Shown here piece by piece: positions 18,815-53,242 of a DNA stretch of 64,000 bases (its first letter is position 1; each line of letters begins with the position of its first letter). The notes beneath the pieces are model-generated. The model was not told where the DNA came from and searched no databases. It was given only the letters and a program-made list of their open reading frames with translations. The translations under genes were made by a program, and so were the position numbers. The stretch spans positions 25,276,412 through 25,340,411 of the forward strand of contig NC_045139.1 of assembly GCF_008831285.2 (NCBI RefSeq). Reading direction: 5' to 3'. This stretch comes from Nymphaea colorata. Taxonomy: Eukaryota; Streptophyta; Magnoliopsida; Nymphaeales; Nymphaeaceae.

Positions 18815-20300
18815 ATAATAAAAATGTAAGAAAATTTCAGGTTCGTTAGCATAAGCAAATGCTTCATGCGAAATTATTCGTTATTTGTCAACTATCATCA
18901 GTCAGCAGATAGAGCATCAGGCCCATTAAAAGAGCATTTATTGAATTGTTCCATTTGCATTTTTATTTTTTGTGATTTTCCAAGGAGACATATTTTCCTT
19001 ATGACATCTATCAGGAAATGTAATGTTTTGAATTAAGATCTACACTTGCCACAAAATTTATAAAGTAAAACTAAGTAAATATACATTTCTTAAGATATTA
19101 GTTGAATTGATAAAAATGTAATTTAGTAATGCCATGCTAATAAGAAGATCCTATCCAATGTTCTGTCGTTTATCATATTAAGGTAACGTTTGATGGGATG
19201 GAAATTCACTGTAGTCAAATTTTTAAAATTTTTCGAGTTTATCAAACATGGAAAAAAAAATTTTACCGTTGGGGCTGGAAACAGAAATAAATTTCCAAAA
19301 AAAAATTTTCAGAAAAAATTTTCTGGTTTTTTTTTTTTTTACCGTTACCCCTGGTGCCTCCCTCCTTCTTCCCTCGCTCCCTTCTTCCTGAGCTTCCCTT
19401 CTTCTTCCTCCTACACTTCCTTCTTCCTCTTTCTCCCTTCTTCCTCCTAGCCTTCCTTCTTCCTCCTTCTCCTTCATTCTTCCTCCTTTTCCCTTCTTCC
19501 TCCGCGTCACTTCTTCCTCCTTCCTTCTTCCTCCGCCTCCCTTCTTCCTCCTTCCTTCTTCCTCTGCCGCCTCCCTTCTTCTTCCTCTGTTGCCTCCCTT
19601 CTTCCTCCCTCCTTCTTCCTCTGCCTTCCTCTCTCCCTTCTTCCTACGACCCTTGCTCCCTTCTTCCTTCCTTACTCCTTTCTTCCTTCGCCTCCCTTTT
19701 TCCTCCGCCTCTCTTTTTCCTCCTTCATCCTTCCATTCTTTCTCGCTCTCTTTTTCCCCTAAACTTGAAAATTTATTTCTTTTTCGTCAAACTAAGAAAT
19801 AAATTTTTAGAAATTTATTTTTTAGTTTGATGAAAAAAAAAATATATTTCCAAGTTTATGAAAAAAAAGAAGCGAGGAAGGAAATTTATTTCTTAGTCAT
19901 TACACACACATTTAATATCAAAATGAACATCGAATTTTTTTCATTCAATTTTTTCAAAAAATATATTTTCAAAAATATATTTTTAATTGCATATTTTCAA
20001 CCACCAAACGTTACTAGGAAATTTCATTTCCACTTTTATTTGAATAGTTTTCACGAAGAACGATGCTTTTATTAAGAAATCACATTCCCTTTTATAATTA
20101 TAAGCAAAAGACGGACCTTAAAATAGGGGAAAAAACAATAAATAACAGTACTGCAATTAAAATTCTGACACCATTCAATCACTTCAAAGTTTTGGTTGAC
20201 CCAAGAAGAGAGGGACAAAACCGAAGCATATTGTGACTGATCCATATCCATGTTAAAAACCGATAGGCTTTCAGCTTACTCTCACACGCGTGTTTTTGGA
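18815..20300 (+). repeat. Dispersed repeat copy A, split by a Tourist-like insertion
   Basis: 18815-19010 and 20070-20300 match, in order, 24640-24850 and 25050-25290. Shared blocks include CATAAGCAAATGC, TATAAGCAAAAGA and ACCCAAGA(A/G)GA. The middle, 19182-20016, is a separate element absent from the other copy. Class of the repeat unknown. Confidence 0.55.
19182..20016. mobile_element. Tourist/PIF-Harbinger-like non-autonomous element with pyrimidine tract
   Basis: Ends are inverted: GTAACGTTTGATGG at 19183 and, on the other strand at the right end, GTAACGTTTGGTGG. The G-T-(N)-CGTTTGG start resembles Tourist-like ends. Inside is a roughly 400-base CTTCTTCCTCC-type tract (about 19350-19745), flanked by A/T-rich arms that are themselves partly inverted. 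A three-base target duplication could not be fixed. The ORFs across the tract are low-complexity artefacts. Confidence 0.5.
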
Positions 20301-26043: not shown

Positions 26044-26649
26044 ATGAAGTTCAATGCCTTTTCCATTCCTTCCAAACCATCTGCCGAAATCAGGAGACCC
26101 TCCACTTTCTGTGATGAGCCTGCTGAGATAGCTGAAGGACTTCAATACGTGACAGAGTTTGATGGCTCTGCTCCCTTAGTAGAACCCAAATCAATAACAA
26201 TCCCTAGGCAAGAGAATACATGGCGTCCTGAGAGAAGGATGAAGGACATCAACCTTGCCGGTGTCCAGTTTGATACTAAGGTTGAAAAAGATCTCAAAAC
26301 AGATACAGGGTATGGGCTAAACCTTAGGAACAGGGTTAATGATAGTAAGCAACAAGAAGAAACGACTTCGATTGCTAGGAAGTCTGTTATAGAGAGCCTC
26401 TGGGATCAAAAGTACAAAGAAGATGTGGTAAATTTGCCAGATGAGGATGGTCCAGAGAAGTATAAGGATGTCCCGGTTGAGAGCTTTGCATTGGCCGTGC
26501 TCTCTAGCTATGGATGGTCAAAAGGCAAGGGGATCGGAAGAAACGCAACGGAGGATGTGCCGATTTACAAGCATCCGAGGCGAATAGGAGGATTTGGAGT
26601 CACGGTCGACCTAGAGAACCAGAGACAGATGAGGCACGGAGTTTAGATG
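26044..26649 (+). CDS. Short MOS2/GPKOW-like G-patch protein
   Basis: Single coding exon of 200 residues plus TAG; ATG at 26044. The N-terminal half resembles MOS2 (MKFNAFSIPSKP start; ENTWRPERRMKD near residue 59; TGYGLNLRNRV near 91). It is followed by a G-patch of the Spp2/MOS2 type (about 142-190: VPVESFALAVLSSYGWSKGKGIG). MOS2/GPKOW proteins act in the nucleus in pre-mRNA splicing and microRNA maturation; in Arabidopsis, MOS2 loss weakens immunity. Known members are over 400 residues, with two KOW motifs after the G-patch. Here the frame stops right after the G-patch and no KOW is readable downstream, so the copy is truncated or a short paralogue. It may use a 5' UTR exon 4 kb upstream. 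Confidence 0.85.
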
Positions 26650-27638: not shown

Positions 27639-30600
27639 ATGGCGCGCCAATGCAGCAGGCTCCTCCGGTTAGGGTTTACTTCCATGTCTTGCCTCTTTGA
27701 AAGAGGAAATGGAGGAGGAGCCCCATTTCGCGCCACCGCCCATAAATGGAGCTGCCGGCGCTTCACCGCCGCTCCTCCTCCTCCTCCTCGTCGGTCCGCG
27801 GATAGGCGCACTCGCGTCACCATGGTAAGGTCTCTTTCTCTCTCCCTCTCTCTCTCGTTTGTGATTGATAGCATCTGGGATGCTTTTCTCCGCCGCGTTC
27901 TTTTTGTAATAGGTTTCGGTTTTCTATACTCGGCTTATGTTGTCGTCGATGATTGTTTGTACAGCTTGTTAGCTGGTCGGTTTTGGTTAAATTTTATCAA
28001 TGAGCAGACTAGGATTTGGTGATTGAACGATCGGAGTATTTTTCTGTTGGAGGAATGAAATTCTCGGCTCTATTCGAGACGGCAGTAGTTTCTCTGATAT
28101 TAAATTTGATTTCCGTACGAGCTTCAGAGCTTGCGTTGTTAAGTTAATGGTTCGATATACTTTTGTACTCTGATGTGTTAATGGATGCATTACGCTGTTC
28201 TCCTAGTTGTTGGTCTGATTGATTCAAATCAATATAAGGCAACAGGATTTGCTTGTTATTTCATCTTCGCATTCGTAAATCAGCATTCGACTTTTTCAAA
28301 ATTTCTGCCTGTAGAAGGCACATAACGGCAAATAGCTCATATATTTACTATTTATCGTAGTTAACAACGGTTTTAGGTCATCCCTGAAGGAAGCTGATTG
28401 AAAACACTCACTTGAACAGGAGCTTTTGTCTCGTCTTTTGAGGCATAAGACGACTCTTATGACATGATAAGGTGTTACCCTACAGTTTACTGCGGTGTTG
28501 GACCACCGGGCAAGCAAACCCTGGAAAAGTTACCAGGGTTGTGTTGTTGTTGGACTGAACTACTAAATTGGACTTCCTACTACATGTCAATCAATAAAAT
28601 ATAAGCTCCATTATAAGCATGTATGTGGCGCACAAGTTAAAATGTCGGACCAGCTAATGCCAGGTTCTTCTTCTGGCTGTTTGATGTGTTATGGAAGGCA
28701 AACACCTGGTTACTGCTCGATTCGCGCAATGCAAACAAAACCAGTTCACCTCTTGCTCAAGATGGTACCAGGCTACTAGGCATTGACAATTGCAAAAAAC
28801 AATGTGCTATTTCGTATTTACTAAGTAATAGCAAAATGCAAATTACTCTCTCTCTTTTTCGCTGTCTCTCCCTTTGTCTCCAACTCATTAACAACAAATT
28901 ATATCAAATTACTCATTATGAATCTAATGTCATTATTCACGGTTCATAAATGCATTAAGCAAATTTGGAAGTAATTACTAATTAATGAAAAATTACTCGT
29001 TATGGATCTAATATCCTCTCTCTCTCTGTTATGCAAACTTGCTATTTCATGTTTACTAATTAGTAGCAAATTACTCATTATTGGTCTAATGTAATCATTC
29101 ACATTTTGTAAATGCATTAAGGAAACTCGTAAACAACAATTATGACATGGGAAGAAGTCAAATAAGATGTCTATATTTCTAAAGTTTTAACTAGGATAAA
29201 TATTCTATTACGTAAGCTAGTAATGCACACTGACATGGCTTAATTTTTCTTTCCTATTCTTTAGATAAAATTACATTTGTTGAAAATTGGCTGTCTAATT
29301 CTGAATGAAAAGTAGGTGCATTGACTGTATCCTGCATTCTGTCCTGCCATGTTGCTACTGGTTGGTTGCTGTTATAGTCTGTCCAACATAGTTTATGAAT
29401 TCTTTGATCTATTTCTTTGCCTTGGGCCTGAAAGAGATTTTTATAAGCTCAAATAATTAGTTCAAATTTTGGACAACGTGAATATTCTTGTCATTTCTGT
29501 TTTCTTCTAAATTTTATTCTTTTCTTCTTTATAGGTAGTTAAAAACATTAGTGTTGTGAATGTTGGGATCTTTGTCATTATTATTATATTTTGATTTGTA
29601 AAACAGTACTTAATGGCGTTTTACCTGTTGATTTGTTGGTCTCTTTAGTGGTGATCTTTCCTTTGTTATCTTGCATACCGAAATCCATATATACCATGTT
29701 GTCTTTCAAATTTGTTATGTTAGTTTTATGTTTTTTCAATAGTCTCCTATCTAATCTGATTAGACTGCAAATTTATACACTAGGGAAGGATATTGACTGG
29801 AACCATGTTGGGTGTTGTGATTGCTGGAGGTGCATATGTAAGTACAGCAGATGAAGCAACATTCAGGTAGATTGTCTAATCTTTGCTAAAAATACCCATC
29901 GTAGATCATAATTTTGTGTTCTAAACTTCTAATTGACTTGAAAAAAAATTAATGAAAAAATTTCTGCATTTAAATTCGGAATTCTGCAGTTACGCCTTTT
30001 GTTTATTTATGAAAATATGTACCACTTAATTCACATAAGATGTTAGTTCGTCTAAGTCAACAACAAGGTACTCTTGCTTGTCTCATACTTGAATGTTCTT
30101 GAAGGCATCTCCAAACTGCGAAGCCAAAAAAAAAAAAAAAGAGAGATGGTAATATTATTCCTACCAAGTTCTGAATCTTTTATTTCTTGTCTGCCGGTGG
30201 TTCTATAGGTCCCTTATTAGGGCATTATCAAGAACGTGGTCTCTTCATATGGCTTTTCTTTCATACATGTAATAAGTGATGATCTTTCAACAAGCTTCTC
30301 TCTTTGTTGTCACAATGATGCACAAAACCATCATTGCCATCACTCTTCATAAGAGAGTTGGATGGGAAGAAAACATGAGGTATGTTATCAAGATATCAGA
30401 GGTCTGACACCGCATTGTAAACCCTAAAACTTAAAAGACTAATTGGGACTAGTTAACTGACATAAGTAAATAAATACATATATTATGTGGAAATAAATAA
30501 AAAAACATATATGTATGCAAAGAATGCACTACATATCTATAGGTCAATACATAGTTGGCTGACCAACCATTAGGCTGATTAATTGACTAGTTTGACCAAC

Positions 30601-30822
30601 TAATAATTGGTTTGGGACATGGGTCATGGGTGGGTTGATGGCCTACTTAGTCAGGCCAGTTGACGACTAGTCAAGATTTTGACAACTAAGAGCATGAGAT
30701 ACATTCCTTAAGATATTGCTGCTTTTAGTGAGACGAGTGTCATTTATAGCTACCTAGTCATTGTCATTGTAATTTCTCTCGTCTTTGAGTAAATGTTGAA
30801 CTGTCACCCCCTAACCTTTGGC

Positions 30823-30864
<42 letters not shown>

Positions 30865-31254
30865 AGGAGGATATGTCTTTTAACAAATATGTGCAGAGGA
30901 ATATATAAATATGGGTATGTGTGTGTGTGTGTACACTGTTATTGGATGGCATACCAAACGAAGAAATTTATCACAAGGTAATTACTAGACATTTAGTTAG
31001 TATCATTGATAAAAAAAAATCGATTATTTTATATTTGAAATTTACTAGATTAAGGATTGAATTATGACCACGTAAAGGGAAAGTCTGTCGCTTGGTCTAT
31101 GGAAATAAACCCTTGTAATTTGTAATACTATTTACTATTTAGATTTTAGTGACTAAATCTCTCTTACATAATGGGTCTTTCTTCAATTCATTTTTTCCTC
31201 TCAATAAAACACAGAAACTGTTGAAAATAGAGGTGGCCTCTAGCCTAATCTTCA

Positions 31255-31285
<31 letters not shown>

Positions 31286-34200
31286 GTCTGTCATCATATG
31301 TGCATCTTTCATCTTCTATTGCTCCTCTCTCTACGTAAACCAACAGTATACTCCCTCTCTTTCTTTTTCATGTGCATCCTTATGTCTGTCCTTCTTCTCT
31401 TTCTTTGGTCACATCACATGTGCCTTTCAGCTCTCTCCTATTTCTCCATTAAGGTTATTGTCTGTTTCTCATCCATGAAAATATTCAAAATGCCTTCTCC
31501 ATCAAAGGTCTCTAACTTAATGTCGTGAAATTTCTTCAGGGTCCTCTATGAATTTGGTGATTGTGTTTGCTGAATGAGATATAACTCCTTTCACAACTAA
31601 GTACAAGCCATCAAATTGACCGTGTTCACTACTTTGGTAGGTGGGATCTTCTTGATTTATGTACTTCTTTATTCAAAATTTTATTTATGAAACAAAGATC
31701 TTAAAGTATACTGCCCATAACTTTCATGCTTTTATCCGTAAGATGAAAATCCCCTACATTGAATGGTATTGAGAAATTTTCCTTTAGCTTGGTGATTATG
31801 GTTGTTGAAGTATTGTAGGTATCAGCTTTTGAATATATGTTATTTTCAGATCAAAATCTAGCTATTAAATATAATTTCAATGTTCATTCTCTAGATAAGT
31901 TGACCTACATATCTTATGGCGATGCACATGCATGAGTTTTTTTCTACATGTGCTGTCGTGTATGACTATCTTGCCATTGGCACCAGTCTTTTCTCATGAA
32001 TCTAATCTCATAGATGAGGTTAAACTCTTCAAACCTATATCATATGTTGCTCAAAAGAAGTTGTTGAGTACGCTGTGTGGGTTTAATCTTAGTAAAGTCA
32101 TTCAATATGATCTCTTACGGAATTTGACCAATTTTTCTGATGATTTTTTATGCAGATAGATTTGAATAATTTGCATCCATCCATACACCTAGATTTCCAA
32201 AACCGGCCAGAGGATGGCCAAGGCAAAGGATGGTCGATATATATATATATATATAGCAGTAGATATTTCCCCAACAAATGTAAGCACCCAGAAAAACTTA
32301 CTTCAACATGTTTTTGACTTAAGACACATATATGTATTCATTGTCCCTTGTTGTAAACTACAATAAAACATTCTGATGTTATATTAGTTGGTCAATTTTT
32401 TTGGTTGTTTGATAAGGAAAAAAAAACTCTAAGCATGTATGAAGTTTAATAATTTTTTTCTTATTAAGTTCATTTTAAATAGTGTCCTGTTTAGATTAAG
32501 AAAAAAACTGCATGCAAAGCCACAGAGAAGAAGTGCTTCAACCTACTTGGGGATCTCTCTCTGGCTCTTTCTTTCTGTCTTTCTGTCCGTCACAGACACA
32601 CACACACACACACACACACATGTTGTATCAAGTATGTATATGGCATCATGGTTCTTGGGTGTTTTATCAGCAAGGTTTTCTCAGATATTGATTGGAGATT
32701 TTTTTTTTCTACCTCAAAACTCTGTAAATCAAGGAATTAAATACATCCATAAAATATTACAAAGAATTACAATTTTTTTAGTTTTTATTATTTTTCTTAC
32801 AAAAACACTGATAACATTTCAAAAATAGTTCTTAAAAATGTTAAAAAATGATAAATTATTTTTAAAATATGTATTATTAAAAATATCCCGCATAGCATAT
32901 TATTGCGTTATTTTGATGGAAAGTTGAAATTGGCAATATTTCAAAAATATGGTGACAAATTCTCGTTCTTTTTATTTTATTCTCTTTTCTGCATACGCCT
33001 TTATAGAGAGGAAGAAGAGTGTGACGTGCTGACACAGCAGGGTCTGTAATAAAGAGATATGTATGGTAGTATGTTTGTCACATAAAATGCATATTTTTAA
33101 AAAGAAAAACGTGTATAATACCCGAGAAATAAGTCAGGCGTATAAAACAGCAATTAGACGTCTTTTTAAAAAACACCATAAAATAAAAAACGTGAAAAAA
33201 ACGAATATTATACGCGTTTTTTTGTGTTCTTGCTTATTTTTATTAATATTTTTTTTAATAATTGTTAGGATTTATTAAATGTTTTAATTTTTTTTAAAAA
33301 TTGTCGAGATTTTTCCAAGATATACAACTTTGCCATATTATACCCGAGAAATTCCTCGTATAATACCCATACACGATATATGTGACAACAGTATGTAGGA
33401 CAGATTTGTGCTCACCTATTCCATACAACCTATCATAGATTTTCGTATCATCGAAATTATTGTAAGAATCTTCATCATGACGAGAGCATTTTGACTAATA
33501 TCAAATTTATAGTAATATTGGCAAGTTGATCCTTATGATATACATTTTTCTCTTAATGCTTGAATACACATTTTTCTCTTAATGCTTGAATATTGTACCT
33601 CATTGGGTTTATTGTTTGTGCAGTGGATGGCTCTTTGATGCAACAAAGCTTGTGAATCCTCTCTTTGCGTTGTTAGATCCCGAGACTGCTCATCGTTTGG
33701 CAATATCAGCTGCAGCACGTGGGTTCATCCCAAGGGAAAAGAGGCCTGACCCATCAATATTGGAAGTGGAGGTCTGGGGGCAAAAATTTTCAAATCCGCT
33801 TGGCCTTGCTGCAGGATACGATAAAAATGCTGAGGCTGTGGAGAGTTTGTTAGGACTTGGCTTCAGTTTCATTGAAGTTGGTTCTGTGACACCCATTCCA
33901 CAAGAGGGTACTCAAAAGCCTTGCATATTCAGAATACCACTAGAGAGGTATGCCTGTAGGTTCTGCTTTTTTAAATTTTCCCAAAATGAAATCTATTCTG
34001 AACTGTGGATATTTTTTTATCTTGCACTGATTCCACCTTCATAGCTTTCAGTCTTGTAGGTTAAACTTTAGTAGTTTTAAAGTGCTGACGAAAGTAGGAT
34101 TGGATTGCATCTTTTTAGATGTTCCAATCACTCATCTGGATTGCACTTGAAATTTCCTCTGCTCAGGTTTTTGGAAGCAATACAATGTGCTGGGAATAAC

Positions 34201-37200
34201 AAATTGTCTTATTTACTTTTTTCCTATAAAAGTTGATCCCAGTAATACCTAAACATGGAATCATATTGCACCAATAAAAATCTTCAAATGATTTCTTCTG
34301 CTTCTACCTGCTGGTGCACTCTGTGTATTTTTTTTTTATTACAATGATATTCGAGCATGCCTACTAGGCATGGATTTCTTCAGTAGTTTTCTTGGAGTCA
34401 GCATCAGGTTGTCTACCTATGTTACATGACATCAACATAGAGGGAATGCATATCTCTGGAAGATTCGGTCCTAAAAATGTCAGAACAGGACAGACAACCT
34501 GCTAAAGATGTGACTATAGGGCATATGAGACCTTATGTTGACTTATCATGTCATCACGACTCCAAAAAGGACATGAGAAGGTATTGCATGGAGCTTGTCT
34601 TTTGCACAAACATGAACGTGAAATGCTACATCTTTTGATTCTTTGTCATGCATAAGTCATTTTGTTGTATCTAATATTGTTGTTTATACTCTGGATGACG
34701 AGATGCAGCTTTCACATTCTGCATGTTCATTTGTTACATCCGCTTATCAGGCACTAAATTTCTCTGCTAAATTACATGATGCTTTTCTTATTTTTCTTTG
34801 AATGTAATTTAGTTATTTTAAGCAAAGATAATTCCTTATTCTGGTGAATTAACTTATTAGATGCTTCTTTTGTGTCAGAGCTATCATTGGCCGAGATTGT
34901 GTTAACAGTGAGGGTCTTGTAGCGGTTGTTGAACGCTTGGCTGGTCAATATGGCAAGATCAAATTTAAAAGGAAATCTGATGGTCCAGAACATGGAGGAA
35001 CAGCGGGACATGGCATTGTTGGTGTAAACATTGGCAAGAATACGACGAGTGAAGATGCAGCTGCTGATTACCTTCAAGGATTTCATACTTTGTGTCATAT
35101 TGCTGATTATTTGGTATTTGAGAGCTACTTTCCAATTATATAACATGAACTGTGGCCAGACTAGCAAATTTGCTGCTTTTGTGATCTACCTTTTATTGTT
35201 CTGTCCTGATGTCCAGCATGATCTTATCAAAAGAATAAATGATCAAATGCATGTTGGTGGCAGCAGAAATTTATTCAGTAGGTTGATGTTTGTTAGTTTG
35301 TTCAATAGCCAATGTCAATTGTTTCTGGAACGGATAGAAATCTGGCACCAATAACGTGGAACTAGAAATCTGTATTCATGCAGGAAGATAGAGAGAGAGA
35401 ATGAGACAGGGAGAGGCTGAGGAGAAGAGGCCGTGACCAGTTGGTCTACATGGCCCATATTTATAATACACTCTATCAGTTACGATTGCTGAATCCTAAG
35501 AGACTCTTCAATTGCAGAATCCTGGGAGACTTCTCACGTATCACAAGGATATACAATACCACAATACAGTGTATATCCACAATACAGTTTACAAGAACGT
35601 AGAATACAAGGACATAAAACGTTGTGCAACATTGTTTAACGTGCTGGATTTTGGATCCAGATGGAAGATCCAAAAATTTTATACTTCAACGAATGTCAAT
35701 TAGGCACTATGCATGGACATGGGAGCATGTAATTAATGAGTCTCTAGGCACTTGTCCTGGATACAACCGACAGTACAAAGCCCATTAAGTAGCTGCTAGT
35801 CCACCTAAAGAATAAAATAGACGAATAAGTGGCCTATGTCCTTGTCAAGCAGTTTGCCCCAAAACTATCAACCCAGGCCCATCGTTGCTCGGATCATCTA
35901 GCTGTTCACCTGTTACTGAACTCTTACTGATGGAGGCTAAGTTTTAGGCAAGAAATTGTAGGTCCATGCTTCACAGAATGTTGAATTCATTCCCAAGTTC
36001 ATGATTCATACTGTTTATTTTTAGTCAACTTTCCGAAGGCATGCCATGAAGTTTGTTCTTCAAAATAATTGACAATGAACATACATCCCAAAGATGACAG
36101 ACTTCCTTGGAGTTGCATTTATGTGTACTTGGGTGTTTGCACATGTTTGTGGATGTGTTCGAGTTAGTGATTTCACTGCCTTTTTTTACATCTCATCAGA
36201 ATTTCTTTCTTTTCTTCATGCTTATTGATTATGCAGTCCTAGTAGTGGCATTATAAAATGGCCAGGTGTATATACTAATGTAGGCTGGGCATGGACAATG
36301 TACTAATAACTAGTATCCAGAATATAGATTGACTTGTTTCTTATTATTATTTTTTTATTCCTATATTTTATGAGATCATAAGTTGTTTCCTCACGTTTGA
36401 GTCTTAGACTGGTTAGATGGCTAGTTGATTCTGTCATGTCAGAAGATTGCACACTGTAAACAGCTACTATACTCTTTTGATGGTAAACCATCGACCTGGA
36501 ATGCTTATTCGACCTAGAATGGTTATGAAGTATTAATAATCAAATACCTATAAGTACATAGTACGTTCTTTGCTCCACTAACATGGTTTTTACGAGAAGA
36601 AAGGAAACATAGAAACGTGTTTGGACTTTTAACGGAACTAGTTTTCCATCATAGTCTGGATCACGTACCTTTTATGCCTTTTTTCATGGTCAAGGTAGCA
36701 TGCTAATCATGTCTAGCATAGTTACCTCAACTTCATGTTTCTTGTGTGACAACTCTGCAGGTTATAAATGTTTCACCTCCAAATACCCCAGGCTTACGTA
36801 AACTTGAGGGAAGGAAACAACTTAAAGACCTCGTTAGAAAGGTTTACAGAATATGTAGATGATACAACTGGATTTAATTCAGAATAACATTTTTTGAGGT
36901 TGAAAAACTTATATCCTTCAGCTTTTACCTTTTTAAGATCCAATCTGCTCGTGATGAAATGCTATGGGGTGAGAGAGGGCCTCCTCCATTACTTGTAAAG
37001 ATTTCCCCTGATCTGTCTAGACAGGACCTTGAAGACATTGCTGCAGTATGTTTCTCTTAACACCGTGCATCTTTTATCAAATAAACTGCTGGCTTGTCAA
37101 TCTAATATGCACTGAATCACTGATATCGTCCACTCTTCCAGGTTGCTCTAACTTTGCGGCTCGATGGACTGGTAAGGCTTCATCCAATTTTTCGTTTGCT

Positions 37201-37993
37201 AGGATATTGTGTTCATTTTTCCCATTGCTGTTTTTTCTGGTATACTTCTTAAGTATTTGCAAATGCAGATTATATCAAACACAACCACTTCGAGGCCAGA
37301 ACCTGTAAATAAATACCCTGTGTCTAAGGAGTCTGGTGGATTGAGTGGAAAGCCTCTATTTAGTTTGTCTACCGACATTCTTAAGGAGATGTACATCCTA
37401 ACCCAGGTATGTTTCTATCATACTGACATTTGAGCTGCCACCTCTTGGGGAAACACAACCTTATGTTTCAAGTTTCTCATCTTCCACCAGGGGAAAATCA
37501 CTCTTGTTGGCTGTGGAGGGGTCAGCAGGTATTTGCCGCATTTGATTCTTGAATTTGCAACAGTTGCTGATTCTGTTCTTGAAGATCTTATGGACTTATT
37601 ACTGATATACTGTACTTGCTTTAGTGGTGAGGATGCATATAGAAAGATTCGGGCGGGAGCAACCCTTGTTCAAATCTATACAGCATTTTCATACGAGGGA
37701 CCTGCTTTGGTGCCACGAATAAAGGTATTGGTTGCTGGCTCCTGCAATTTGGCATGATCTCGTAGGTTTGCAATTTAGATCACGTTATTAGTAACGCTGT
37801 AGCTTGACTTATATTGAACTGATGCACGAACAACACTAAGCACTGTTGGGAACAGCATAAGCAACAGTTCTTCACGAAAGAAAATGATTGAGCTCACCAG
37901 TCTTTGTTTCATCTGCAGGCTGAGCTGGCAAGATGCCTGGAGGGAGATGGTTTTAAATCAGTCCACGAAGCTGTTGGTGCGGACTGTAGATAG
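27639..37993 (+). CDS. PYRD: Dihydroorotate dehydrogenase (class 2, mitochondrial), active site altered
   Basis: Eleven exons: 27639-27824, 29784-29866, 33624-33947, 34879-35113, 36761-36841, 36938-37045, 37142-37171, 37269-37406, 37491-37528, 37625-37724, 37919-37993. All have GT-AG borders and join in frame to 465 residues, near the Arabidopsis enzyme's length. The family oxidises dihydroorotate to orotate on the inner mitochondrial membrane (pyrimidine synthesis), using FMN and ubiquinone. An Arg-rich presequence (1-62) is followed by a membrane anchor (about 63-85) and the barrel. FMN-side motifs are kept: AAGYDKNAEA with Lys157, GSVTP, GVNIGKN, VKISPDL, SNTT, GGLSGKPL, GCGGVSSGEDA, GATLVQIYTAF. 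The NVSSPNT motif reads NVSPPNT, so the catalytic Ser is Pro282. NRYGFNSEG reads GRDCVNSEG (202-210), losing an orotate-binding Asn and the conserved Phe. The family call is certain; normal catalysis is doubtful. Confidence 0.93.
28800..29130 (+). repeat. Direct repeat in DHODH intron 1
   Basis: 28800-28975 and 29033-29130 share GCTATTTC, TTTACTAA, AAATTACTCATTAT, TCTAATGT and AAATGCATTAAG in the same order. Two diverged copies. Confidence 0.5.
29867..33623 (+). other. DHODH intron 2 (3.8 kb)
   Basis: GTAGAT...TGCAG. Contains CT/CA microsatellites at about 30823-30864, 31254-31285 and 32592-32621, and GT near 30918. A repeated TA(T/A)TATACCCGAGAAAT-type motif is at 33114 and 33336. No coding exon recognised. 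Confidence 0.8.
35340..35705 (-). repeat. Possible LTR-like fragment in DHODH intron 4
   Basis: Read on the minus strand it has the composition of a copia LTR: an AAGTATAAAATTTTTGG start region, short CCCAGGATTC/CTTAGGATTC direct repeats, and a final CT-rich stretch. Ends and target duplication were not resolved. Confidence 0.25.
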
Positions 37994-47800: not shown

Positions 47801-50800
47801 CATTAACTCGAGGTTCTTCATTCGTCTCCCCATTGTGTATTGCAAATAGCTTACATAAGGTGTGGATGGCTAATTTTTTTCCTTTGCGATTTTTAGTTTT
47901 TCTTTCCTGCTATAAACTTCTTTGGATGCAGTTAATGTTTATGCGTGCTTAAACAGGATGGAGACGATCGCCGACCTCCTACACTGCATGGAAGCTCATC
48001 TAAGAATAGCGAAGATAAGGCATCTTCTTATGTTGGTAGCCCACCTAAGCATAGCGAAGTTAAGTCATCTTCTCATGTTTTATCGCCCAAAGCATTTCCG
48101 CCTAGAAACTTTATTGGTGGTTCTGCTCAGTCTTTGTCGTCAGGCATCTCAGATGGTGTAAATGAACAAATGAAAAGCTCTGCAACTGAGACAGTTAGAG
48201 TTAGTATGTCAAGTGTTGTGAGCTCATCAAGCCAAGGTTCTGGTCATGAAGATGCTGATGCAATTAGGGATGTTTTCATTTGGGGTGAAGATACAGGAGA
48301 AGGGGCTCTGGGTGGCGGAATTCACAGGGCTGGTACTTGTGCTGGTGTCAAAATTGACTCTCTTTTACCAAAAGCTGTGGAATTAACAGCATTGTTTGAT
48401 ATTCGGAGTATAGCTTGCGGTGGAAAACATGCCGCCTTGGTCACCAGGGAAGGGGAGCTCTTCTCTTGGGGGGAGGACTCTGGTGGCCGACTTGGGCATG
48501 GTGTAAATGTTGATGTTTCACATCCAAAGCTTGTAAATTCTCTCAGCGGCGTGAATGTTGCAGTCGTTGCTTGTGGTGAATATCATACGTGTGCTGTAAC
48601 TTTGTCTGGAGAACTTTATACATGGGGTGATGGTGCCTATCATTCTGGACTCCTCGGACATGGTGATGAAGTGAGCAAATGGATCCCCAAAAGGGTAAAT
48701 TTTCCTTTGGGGGCCTTGCCTGTCTCTTCTGTTTCCTGTGGCCCTTGGCATACAGCTGTCGTGACTTCAGCTGGGCAGTTGTTTACTTTTGGTGATGGAA
48801 CTTTTGGTGTTCTTGGACATGGAGACTGCAGAAGTGTGACTAGACCGAGAGAAGTGGAGACTTTGAGGGGTCTGCGCACGATATGTGCTGCCTGCGGTGT
48901 GTGGCATACGGCTGCGGTCGTAGATGTCATGTGTGGGACTCCTAATTCAAATGGTTCTTCTGGCAGGCTGTTTACATGGGGTGACGGTTACAAAGGTATG
49001 CTTGGACACGGTGATAATGAATCTAGACTTGTCCCTGCTAGTGTGGTAGCACTGGCAGAGTTCAACTTTAGCCAAGTAGCTTGTGGCCATCGCTTAACAG
49101 TCGCTCTCGCAGCCTCAGGTCATGTTTACACTATGGGCAGCACAGTTTATGGTCAACTGGGGAATGTCCAATCCGATGGGAAGATCCCTGCTCGTGTTGA
49201 GGGAAAACTACAGAACGGTTTTGTTGAAGAAATTTCCTGTGGTGCTTATCATGTTACAGCATTGACATCAAGAACGGAAGTATATACTTGGGGGAAAGGA
49301 GCAAATGGACAGCTGGGCCATGGGGACACAAGAGATAGGAATGCCCCATGTTTGGTTGAAGCCTTAAAAGATAAGCAGGTCAAAAGTGTTGTCTGTGGCT
49401 CTAATTTTACAGCAGCTATTTGTTTGCACAAACAGGTTTCTAGCATTGATCAATCCATGTGCTCTGGCTGCCATCTCCCATTTAATTTCAAAAGGAAGCG
49501 CCATAACTGCTACAATTGTGGGCTTCTATTCTGTAATGCATGCGCTGCAAAGAAATCAGTTAAAGCTTCCATGGCCCCAAACTGTAACAAACCGTATCGT
49601 GTCTGTGGGAGTTGCTTCAATAAGCTGAAGAAAAATCTAGATAAATTTTCTGGTTCTCATGCAACAATTAGTAGGACAGGAAGCACATATCTCATCTACA
49701 GTGGTTCAGTTGAGAAGGATGATATATTTGGGTTGAGATCTGAGGACCAGATGAGATTATCTTCTGCTGAATCCCTCACGCACGTTGAAGGAACATACTC
49801 GTCGAATGGAAAGAAGAAATTGGACTTAAACAGCACCCGAGTATCACCTGTTCCTCACTGTGGCAGTCAATGGGGTGGTTTTACTTCTTCAGGATCATTT
49901 AATCCAGTGTTTGGATCTGCACAGCCCTTTTTCTCAGATTGGGTTCCTGGGTCCAGAGTTGTTTCAGGAGAAACATCTATTTCTAGACTGCCCAGCCCCC
50001 TACGTTCTACAACACAAACAACTAGTCTGGTTCGGTCTTCTTCACCTAAAATAGGTGCATGTGATGCCAGGACAGATAATAGCTTGACCCACGAGGTTCT
50101 TCAGTTAAGAGTACAGGTAATTTCTTGAACCTTCAATACCTTCCTTGTCTCATTTAGGGAGTGAAAAAAAAAAAGATTAATGTTTTTGCTAAGGACGTGG
50201 ACGTATGCTAGCAAGCAATAGTAGCAGTAATTGTTACGGATTCCTCTCATTCCCATGCCTATCAATACTTATGGCATAGGCCCTGATTACATGGCCAACT
50301 ATATTCTTCAATTTTGACGGCTGATGCTTTACCTGCAGGCACTTGATAGTGTGCACTCCAATGTGTTTACTGTATCGGAGCCTCTTGCTCCTGTCCATTT
50401 CAATGATATTTACCAATGGTGAAGGCTAATAGAATTTTCTTGATCTTATGATGGTGCCTTTAAAGGTCCCCTCTGTAACCAATCAAGTGAAAGATTTTCA
50501 TGCATCACCTAGAGATTCATGAGATGATCTCAATTAGAAAACATTGAATGCTTTCTGAGTGCACAGTTAGTTTATGGATTTATTAATTGCATACCATAAA
50601 ACTCGAAAGGGAAAAGTTGGCTCATGGAGCACCAAATTCTGCTAGAGGAAATGATATTTTCTTAATAAACCAGAATCTTGCACCTTATACAATGAGAATT
50701 GGAACCCATATAGTCAAATGATCAGGGATTCTTTCTTATCGAATCCTACTGTTCTGAAGATGCATAGCTGCAGATAGCATGCCTGGTGAATCACGTGGAG

Positions 50801-53242
50801 CACCAGGGTCCTTTGGTGGGGTTTCTGAAAAAGCAAAGAAAGTGCCTAGAGAATTGACACTTGCTTCGTGGCATTTCATAAGCTTAATATGAGTTTTGTC
50901 TTTTTCTTCACACCTAAAATTGGGTTGTCAAGATTTTTGATCCCACATATTCAATAAAATGACGTAATGCTATGTATCTCTACATATCTTAGAGCAATAT
51001 ATGCTTGTCTTGTACCCGTGAACTTGTTTGCACTTGTATACCAAGTAAAAGATGTAAATGGGCATGATCTTTTGATTGGCAGTGTAGGGATCAAGTATGC
51101 TTGTTACAGTTTCAAAATATGTAAAGAAAGTCCTGCAGTACTTCTGTATGGTTTGGACAAGGTGTGGTTAAGAGCTGTTGCAAAACCATCTTCCTCTGTT
51201 GGACATCCAGTAGTGTCTATTTTCAAGAGCTCTTTTTTCTTGAGTAGAAACTTCTTGGAACTCTGAAGCTGTGGATTAGATGAGAACTACATCATCCAAG
51301 GATTACTACATTGTTTCCTATGATGATAAACCTCTTATGGATTAGCTAATGGATGTTTCTTTTTAATAATGTGCAGGTGGAACATCTCACCCAAAAAGCC
51401 GAGCTTCTGGAAGTTGAGCTTGAAAAGGCTTCAAAACAATTTAACGAAGCTATGACTATTGCCAGGGAAGAAAGAGCCAAATGTAAGGCTGCTAAGGAAG
51501 TCATTGAAGCTCTTTCCATTCAGGTAAATTGACGCATTTTTTAAAATTTCAACTCTTTTTTAATAGCAAAGTTGTGTACACTGCAGGCAATTGCTTATTA
51601 AATTTTTCATGTGATGGGATGATTATTTAATAACAAAGAATCCAAAATTAACATGAGACAAGTTTTTATTAACCTCATTGATAATATTTGTTTGCATTTA
51701 TTTGAAGTTTGTTGTGCTTGCATTATGATGAATCCATGTCCTTGTGGCATTTTACTTTTATTACTGTATTTATTCAGCATAACTAATAGGAAGAAACCTA
51801 TTACTGGGATCCTCAAAGAACTATAAACTTGCCTCTCCTCGCATCACTGGCCCTTTTTGCATGAAAGACATGCATTGTGCAATTGAAATGAGTAAAGGTG
51901 TCTCTTAAGAACTTGACAAATTACTGGCCAGCCTGCAATCCGTCGAGGTTAAATGGTTTAAAAGAATTAAGAGCTTTTGCCTTTTGTATGTTGAAAGAGC
52001 TTGGTTGAAGATGCATAATCTGCACCCATAGGGTCTTCAACTCACAAGGCCCAAGCATTATGCTAACAACTTGACTGGGTACTTTCCCTGCCAAAAAATT
52101 TACATGAGGCAAAAATTGCAGTTTGTGACATTGGCAGAAAGAAACAATATAGACTGATAGAATACAAGGTACCAAGAATGCACTTCCTAAGATGTGAACT
52201 GCTTTCAGAAATTTTGACTCTGTCCCTGAGATGGAAACTGTTTCTTTGGAAGCTTTGACTCTTGAATGAGTACAATATTCTCTATCTGTTCCTACTTCAT
52301 TGTCAATCCATAGACATGAAAGCGATCAACTAGAACAAATGGATTGTAGGATTTTAGGATCTGCTGGATCAAATATCTTCCCCGGAGTCTCTAGATGTCT
52401 CTGTATTAGATCCTATCTCATTATGCTCATTAACAGAAATGGCTAGATACTGATGATTAGGATGTTCATAATGATCCTAAGAGGGTCAGGCTGGTTATTA
52501 TACTTATGCATCTATACCACATGTTTTTGTACCACACCAAGGACGTGTCGTTCTTTTCCTTGATAAAAAAATCTTTGTTGTACTTGTTCAAAATGTGCAG
52601 TAAAGTTTCACTAAATTGACCAGCTGGTAATGTAATGTTTGGATGTTGAACAGTTTAAAGCAATGGATAAAAGGCTCCTCACTGGAGATGCCGATTTGAC
52701 TACGCCTGGTTTATTAATTAGCAAAGGAAGTTCAACTTTGACCGATGCCTTTGTCTTACATGCTGAAGAATTGAGCAGTGTAAGTACTCACTGTGTTGCT
52801 GATCGGAGTCTGACCATTATAAATAAGCCACCAGTTGCTCATGTTTCATCTTATAATACCATCCAGAGGGAAAATCATATCAGAGTAGGCAATTCAGGAG
52901 CTTCCACAAGAAATATTGTACAATCAAATCAAAGCCATGAACATGATGGAGAATGGGTTGAGCAAGATGAGCCAGGGGTATATATAACCCTTACTTCCTT
53001 GCATGGTGGCACTAACAATCTCAAGCGTGTCCGCTTCAGGTACAGGTCATTACTTTGTCAGTGTCAAATTGTAGGTTTAGTTGAAGACTAACTCAAAATA
53101 TAAATGCAGTCGGAAGCAATTCAGCAAGGAGCGAGCAACACAATGGTGGGCTGAAAATCAGACAAGAGTATGCAAACAGTACAATGTGCACATGGTTGAT
53201 AAATGTGGGATTTTTGTGGGCCATGATGCTGCTTCTTCTTGA
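41868..53242 (+). CDS. PH-RCC1-FYVE-BRX protein of the PRAF/RLD family
   Basis: Nine exons: 41868-41915, 42803-42889, 45406-45495, 47412-47492, 47665-47859, 47957-50116, 51377-51523, 52654-53039, 53110-53242. All have GT-AG borders and join in frame to 1108 residues, the usual family length. The ATG lies in GCCAATGG. Domains: PH (about 17-150; [33 protein letters not shown]); RCC1 repeats (about 200-660; repeated WGxGxxGxLGHG, CGxxHT); FYVE-like zinc finger (about 662-725) with four C-x2-C pairs (CSGC, CYNC, CNAC, CGSC) and the [10 protein letters not shown] core; coiled coil (888-936); and C-terminal BRX (about 1037-1095; [22 protein letters not shown]). In Arabidopsis, RLD/PRAF proteins bind LAZY1-like partners through BRX and guide PIN trafficking in gravity responses; PH and FYVE imply phosphoinositide membranes. 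Nothing is broken. Confidence 0.96.
43103..43376. mobile_element. Tourist-like MITE in PRAF/RLD intron 2
   Basis: 19-bp terminal inverted repeats with one mismatch: AGGTGTTTGGCTGACACCC at 43103-43121, and its near-complement ending at 43376. Length 274. Internal text holds several AAACC(T/A)GGTTTTG palindromic pieces. The target duplication is not resolved. Confidence 0.7.
43521..43973. mobile_element. hAT-type MITE candidate in PRAF/RLD intron 2
   Basis: Left end CAGTGTTCAAAAACCC. Right end, read inverted, CAAGGTTAGGTTTTAAAAC. Flanks AGAGAAGC (43512-43519) and AGAGAAGT (43974-43981) form a near-perfect 8-bp duplication, one base from the left end. Internal GAGTCA/TGACTCG motifs are typical of this element type. 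Confidence 0.5.
44222..44659. mobile_element. hAT-type MITE with perfect 8-bp target duplication
   Basis: Target duplication CTTGTTGG at 44214-44221 and 44660-44667. Terminal repeats TAGAGTTGTACAAC and (inverted) TAGGGATGTTCAAC match 11/14. Interior rich in GAGCTCGAG words. The same kind of sequence recurs at 56707-57050 and 60615-60981. Confidence 0.82.
44699..44905. mobile_element. Short hAT-type MITE candidate
   Basis: 16-bp inverted ends with one mismatch, CATAGTTGGCAAACTC (44699) against GAGTTTACCAACTATG (44890-44905). Interior full of GACTCAGCC words. Flanks CCTTTTTT and CTTTTTCA are similar, but the repeat is low complexity. Confidence 0.55.
45580..45690 (+). repeat. CA microsatellite interleaved with GTGATATTCCGGA units
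   Basis: In PRAF/RLD intron 3, about 85 bases after the exon 3 donor. Three (CA)n runs alternate with CTT(C/G)GTGATATTCCGG units, the last one truncated. Confidence 0.75.

Follow-up and report, generated by a model that had tools for sequence, protein, structure and literature searches.

Dihydroorotate dehydrogenase in plants

Dihydroorotate dehydrogenase (DHODH) occupies a central place in pyrimidine synthesis and is targeted by drugs and by the herbicide tetflupyrolimet. The potato DHODH gene is reported as a single copy of 11 exons encoding 460 residues, and S277, the catalytic serine of its product, is described as aligning with S175 of the E. coli enzyme and S215 of the human enzyme (PMC6611227). 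The class 2 enzymes are listed as monomers (PMC10395836). Two full DHODH genes of Nymphaea colorata, one on contig C2 in the window and one on contig C9, share with potato StDHODH, as described in that report (PMC6611227), the 11 exons, a length of about 460 residues, the N-terminal extension, the anchor and the FMN-site residues. Unlike both potato StDHODH and the C9 copy, the gene in the window has proline in place of the active-site serine and GRDCV in place of NRYGF.

Structure of the gene

The window is the whole stretch of 64,000 nucleotides that was analysed (C2:25276412-25340411). The gene, a class 2 DHODH of the plant type, occupies positions 27639-37993 of the window on the plus strand, and its sequence places its ancestry among the class 2 enzymes. 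Its protein matches the family profiles over the whole domain, scoring 426.6 bits with NF003645 (cut-off 366) and 365.6 bits with TIGR01036 (cut-off 200). Splicing the 11 exons directly from the window gives 465 codons without an internal stop, and all ten introns have GT-AG boundaries. The reading frame and the splice sites are intact, just as the original prediction had it, and the broken frame or splice sites of a pseudogene are absent.

Exon 1 (27639..27824) contains the start codon and encodes a basic N-terminus, the composition of which suggests that it is probably a mitochondrial presequence. Exon 2 (29784..29866), which is 83 nt long in both genes, supplies the membrane anchor region, GRILTGTMLGVVIAGGAYVS. 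An N-terminal extension and a membrane anchor are thus predicted from these two exons, and the anchor resembles that of the C9 protein. Exon 3 (33624..33947) encodes the FMN motif AAGYDK; a tandem pair of a 26-base unit is found just upstream of its acceptor, at 33538-33592. Exon 4 (34879..35113) opens with the altered substrate motif AIIGRDCVNS, where the C9 copy has AIINRYGFNN, and exon 5 (36761..36841) corresponds to VINVSPPNTPGLRKLEGRKQLKDLVRK. The remainder of the protein retains the familiar motifs: VKISPDL with its FMN-contact Lys in exon 6 (36938..37045), NTT and GGLSGKPL in exon 8 (37269..37406), GCGGVSS in exon 9 (37491..37528), and RAGATLVQIYT, with the Tyr and Thr that contact FMN, in exon 10 (37625..37724). 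Exon 7 (37142..37171) and exon 11, which ends with the stop codon TAG (37919..37993), were placed by splicing.

Several other features accompany the gene. Just upstream of it, at 26044-26643, lies an open frame of 200 aa with a G-patch and a stop soon after the G-patch, which could be related, in truncated form, to proteins of the MOS2/GPKOW type. Myb-like and CRAL/TRIO genes are also neighbours. A long low-complexity stretch at 19223-19830 has several frames open on both strands, the minus strand being rich in Lys, Arg, Glu and Gly.

The catalytic serine

From position 36761 the DNA reads GTT ATA AAT GTT TCA CCT CCA AAT ACC, which is translated as VINVSPPNT. Direct reading and splicing both bear out the prediction that proline occupies the position of the catalytic serine (human S215): the codon CCT at 36776..36778 is that of residue 282. 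The class 2 functional motif N-x-S-S-P-N-T is represented here by NVSPPNT, and human and rat have NVSSPNT in the same column.

The comparison set comprised 80 references, namely 78 bacterial loci together with human and rat. The bacterial sequences came from the best 80 of the 589 confirmed loci of a contig scan, mostly titled alphaproteobacteria, and the peptide patterns of that scan do not cover the serine. Two loci were left out of the alignment: one (L057) had been read in the wrong open frame, and the other, from Ehrlichia muris (L071), is divergent. The base residue is Ser in 79 of the 80 references, Thr in one and Pro in none. The sequence with Thr (NISTPNTPG) is an alphaproteobacterial class 2 DHODH (L039). 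Of 200 bacterial genomes, 70 contained a match to a codon pattern that admits Pro, Thr and Ala codons as well as TCN Ser; the 130 genomes lacking a match are uninformative. A TCN Ser codon was found in 70 of the 70 matches.

A single T-to-C change from TCT had been pointed out as a route to the proline codon. Such a change is possible, but the intact C9 paralogue has TCC as the corresponding codon. The suggestion that a different exon 5 might be spliced into transcripts finds no candidate in the window, where a scan of all six frames for N-[VIL]-S-x-P-N returned one site, the proline-containing one; an alternative exon 5 of this form is absent from the window. As the serine is the base of class 2 catalysis, its replacement makes loss of the dihydroorotate reaction in the window protein very likely. 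The same conclusion in the original prediction thus appears sound, and it is strengthened by the altered substrate loop described below.

Changes in the substrate site

The proline is one of several departures from conserved residues. Among the 72 columns in which at least 95% of the references agree, nine are altered in the window protein, none in the C9 protein, and one each in the human and rat proteins. The nine departures are G171S (33865-33867), N186T (33910-33912), R190C (33922-33924) and L194I (33934-33936) in exon 3, N202G, G205C and F206V in exon 4, and S282P and Q292E in exon 5; Glu292 (36806..36808) replaces a Gln present in 80 of 80 references. At a cut-off of 90% the window protein departs at 14 of 94 columns (C9 at 2, human and rat at 3 each), and at 98% it departs at 8 of 61, the other three proteins departing at none. 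With the two omitted bacterial loci included, the departures of the window protein number 9 of 70. The Ehrlichia muris sequence, a real and fast-evolving member of the family, departs at 7 of these 70 columns, none of which is changed in the window. It had been supposed that the proline might be an odd single codon, removable by resequencing; the gene is instead a diverged paralogue of long standing, in which nine conserved columns are affected.

The departures are clustered. Residues 186-206, encoded by exons 3 and 4, account for changes at 6 of 10 conserved columns compared with 3 of 62 elsewhere (Fisher test, 1e-4), and the cluster persists at the 90% cut-off (7 of 12 compared with 7 of 82) and at 98% (5 of 8 compared with 3 of 53). 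When a stretch of 21 residues, a length fixed after inspection of the data, could be placed anywhere, six changed columns were reached in 18 of 20000 permutation trials. Intron 3, which is 931 bases long, splits the cluster, which is therefore local in the protein and not in the DNA; this favours a cause at the level of the protein over a local mutational event. A compensated frameshift in exon 4 was considered and rejected, because the C9 sequence AAT CGC TAT GGT TTT AAT and the window sequence GGC CGA GAT TGT GTT AAC differ codon by codon.

The centre of the cluster is the substrate motif, INRYGF, which has become IGRDCV. Four of the five residues of NRYGF are changed in codons 202-206 (34889..34903), a point absent from the original prediction, and they include residue 204, which is Asp in the window protein and Tyr in C9, human and rat. 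The functional feature NRxGF, human N145 to F149, thus reads GRDCV. We take this segment to be the substrate-binding loop and the Asn and Phe of INRYGF to be the substrate contacts N145 and F149. Asn145, Tyr147 and Phe149 are named in one report as contacts of docked ligands, the ligands there being other than orotate (PMC12542235).

For further comparison, the residues that contact FMN, bind the substrate or line the quinone tunnel were taken from the human enzyme. In the window protein 5 of the 11 substrate residues are altered, in the C9 protein none, and the window protein is identical to the human one at 16 of 17 FMN-contact residues, the exception, T283S, being common to C9. Among six quinone-tunnel residues, which vary between species, the window protein differs from human at V134I, V143I and T360S, and C9 differs at V143I and T360A; R136, Y356 and P364 are retained.

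Other copies in the genome

The original prediction had proposed that a second, intact DHODH gene be sought. The search, which covered 407.8 Mb in 783 contigs, found one at C9:13665549-13675055, with 11 exons, 445 residues and both canonical motifs, NVSSPNT and INRYGF. Nine of the 11 exons are equal in length in the two genes; exons 1 and 4 differ. With this canonical copy present, the plant would not need to rely on the window gene, provided that the C9 gene is expressed.

A third copy, partial and rearranged, is located at C2:26803185-26804776 (L091, 7185-8776), in which exons 8-10 share one orientation and exon 6 lies beside them in the opposite one. It is 94.5-95% identical to the C9 DNA, introns included (94.5% over 1422 aligned bases), and this copy, at C2:26.80 Mb, is by its sequence a fragment of a recent duplication. 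Another fragment resembling exon 6 is present at C9:7.89 Mb. The number of copies is a lower bound, because genome searches score the best candidates only. A weak PF01180 match at C10:16.97 Mb (L093) gave no row in a tblastn comparison with the window protein, and we take it for a dihydropyrimidine dehydrogenase.

Age and constraint of the pair

Over residues 63-465 the window and C9 proteins are identical at 286 of 403 residues, so that 29% of the core residues differ. The corresponding dS, estimated by the method of Nei and Gojobori with the Jukes-Cantor correction, is 1.33, a value near saturation; dN is 0.174, and the dN/dS of 0.13 is an average across both lineages and not specific to either branch. 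These values indicate that the two full copies are old and, on average, constrained. The ratio is not uniform along the gene: it is 0.23 in exon 3 and 0.30 in exon 4, whereas those later stretches that allow its computation have values of 0.03-0.11. The rise extends over exons 3 and 4 in full and is not limited to the motif.

Polarisation of the changes by the human and rat sequences assigns 32 to the window lineage and 15 to C9 (p 0.019). In residues 171-206 the window has 11 and C9 has 2, and in residues 277-303 the numbers are 3 and 0; outside these two stretches they are 18 and 13 (p 0.47). The two-by-two comparison of both active-site stretches with the rest (14:2 vs 18:13) is marginal, with p 0.052, and that of residues 171-206 alone (11:2 vs 21:13) gives p 0.17. 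The faster overall change of the window copy could be due to relaxed constraint.

It is doubtful that the C9 copy is the partner of the window block in a whole-genome duplication. Among 930 open frames of the window compared with the 210 kb of C9:13566001-13776000, DHODH is the only one shared. An RCC1-FYVE-type neighbour of the window gene has a large exon at 47936-50128 and a BRX-domain frame at 52636. Its best paralogue lies on another contig, at C1:41212535-41214652, with a dS of 0.78. This value is nearer than the 1.33 of the DHODH pair to the KS peak of about 0.9 given in a published analysis (PMC7015852). The DHODH pair therefore does not readily trace to the whole-genome duplication, although this doubt stems partly from one neighbour pair, which is thin evidence.

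Possible explanations

An error of sequencing or assembly is the least probable explanation. One base change could in principle arise in this manner, but nine departures at conserved columns, spread over three exons with the frame undamaged, could hardly do so, and a difference of 29% of the core residues from the paralogue is implausible as an accumulation of base-call errors. It is also improbable, though somewhat less so, that the protein is a working DHODH with another base or a water network. Lys100, Asn212, Asn217, Thr218, Asn284 and Thr285 (human numbers) are all retained, and the base does differ in other classes of the enzyme, being Cys in 1A and 1B according to one report (PMC10395836). 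The side chain of proline, however, cannot take up a proton; human Asn145, Tyr147, Gly148 and Phe149 are all replaced as well; and proline was found at the base in none of the 80 references and none of the 70 pattern matches. Literature searches for kinetic data on mutants of the serine gave no result; the nearest published test found concerns a class 1A enzyme, in which replacement of the base Cys by Ala is described as abolishing complementation in yeast (PMC10395836).

The main rival is that the gene is a dying duplicate, which was a DHODH until recently and has lost constraint without yet acquiring a stop or a frameshift. The canonical C9 copy would make such a loss tolerable, the window lineage is the faster one overall (32 to 15), and DHODH debris exists in the genome, in the form of the partial copy on C2 and the fragment on C9. 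In a model of decay that assumes 2.25 replacement sites for each codon and 0.1 indels for every substitution, takes the C9 sequence as a stand-in for the ancestor and runs 400 trials per distance, an intact frame is likely enough at neutral distances of 0.01 and 0.02 (joint probability 0.22 and 0.05), but at 0.05 the probability that the frame survives drops to 7e-4. Uniform decay would change at least 6 of the 10 columns with a probability of 1.3e-6 at a distance of 0.02 and 2e-4 at 0.05, although the model is insensitive to decay limited to the substrate site. Had uniform neutral loss changed 6 of these 10 columns, more than 3 of the other 62 would be expected to differ and the frame to be broken. 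The pairwise dN/dS of 0.13 together with the clustering of the changes speak against a long decay. We regard this explanation as unlikely, yet it deserves more weight than the previous two.

The nine departures, the old and constrained pair, and the nearly equal numbers of changes outside the active-site stretches are consistent with neither an error in sequencing nor an even decay. By combining these observations, it is possible to propose what probably happened. The gene would be an ancient class 2 duplicate in which purifying selection has retained a folded, FMN-binding protein of the mitochondrial type, presumably expressed, while the dihydroorotate site was specifically remodelled by the change of the catalytic Ser to Pro and of INRYGF to IGRDCV. 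The protein would then be devoid of normal dihydroorotate oxidation, and pyrimidine synthesis would be sustained by the activity of the canonical C9 copy. The protein may have become a pseudoenzyme, serving as a regulator or a partner, or it may be an FMN oxidoreductase with another substrate. In the latter case, a flowering plant of a probably early-diverging lineage might have derived from DHODH, and long kept, a new mitochondrial quinone-linked FMN oxidoreductase by retaining the FMN site and rebuilding the dihydroorotate pocket for a different substrate; we offer this more specific idea only tentatively.

As both functional features, the serine and NRxGF, are lacking, the window gene should not carry the annotation of an active DHODH, and caution is needed before both copies are annotated as such. 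If the proposal is correct, a paralogue kept for a long time without the catalytic base represents a natural test of what the remaining scaffold is capable of.

Comparison with other systems

In the titles and abstract openings of the literature matches listed, a collection outside which most subscription journals fall, no plant DHODH pseudoenzyme or similar paralogue is described. In Arabidopsis, PDX1.2 is a pseudoenzyme of vitamin B6 synthesis with a known partner role. Like the window protein, PDX1.2 is a plant TIM-barrel paralogue without the catalytic residues, but it belongs to a different family. In trypanosomatids, deoxyhypusine synthase and the AdoMetDC prozyme likewise present a non-catalytic duplicate of a metabolic enzyme beside a catalytic copy (PMC3663545, PMC6221367). 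The dead paralogues are reported there to activate their catalytic partners (PMC3663545, PMC6221367), whereas a partner role of the window protein would be hypothetical, and class 2 DHODH is listed as a monomer (PMC10395836). The dihydrouracil oxidase of moulds, which had been taken for a class 1A DHODH, is described as a DHODH-like protein that uses another substrate; unlike the window protein, it has kept the catalytic Cys, and it resembles class 1A rather than class 2 (PMC10395836).
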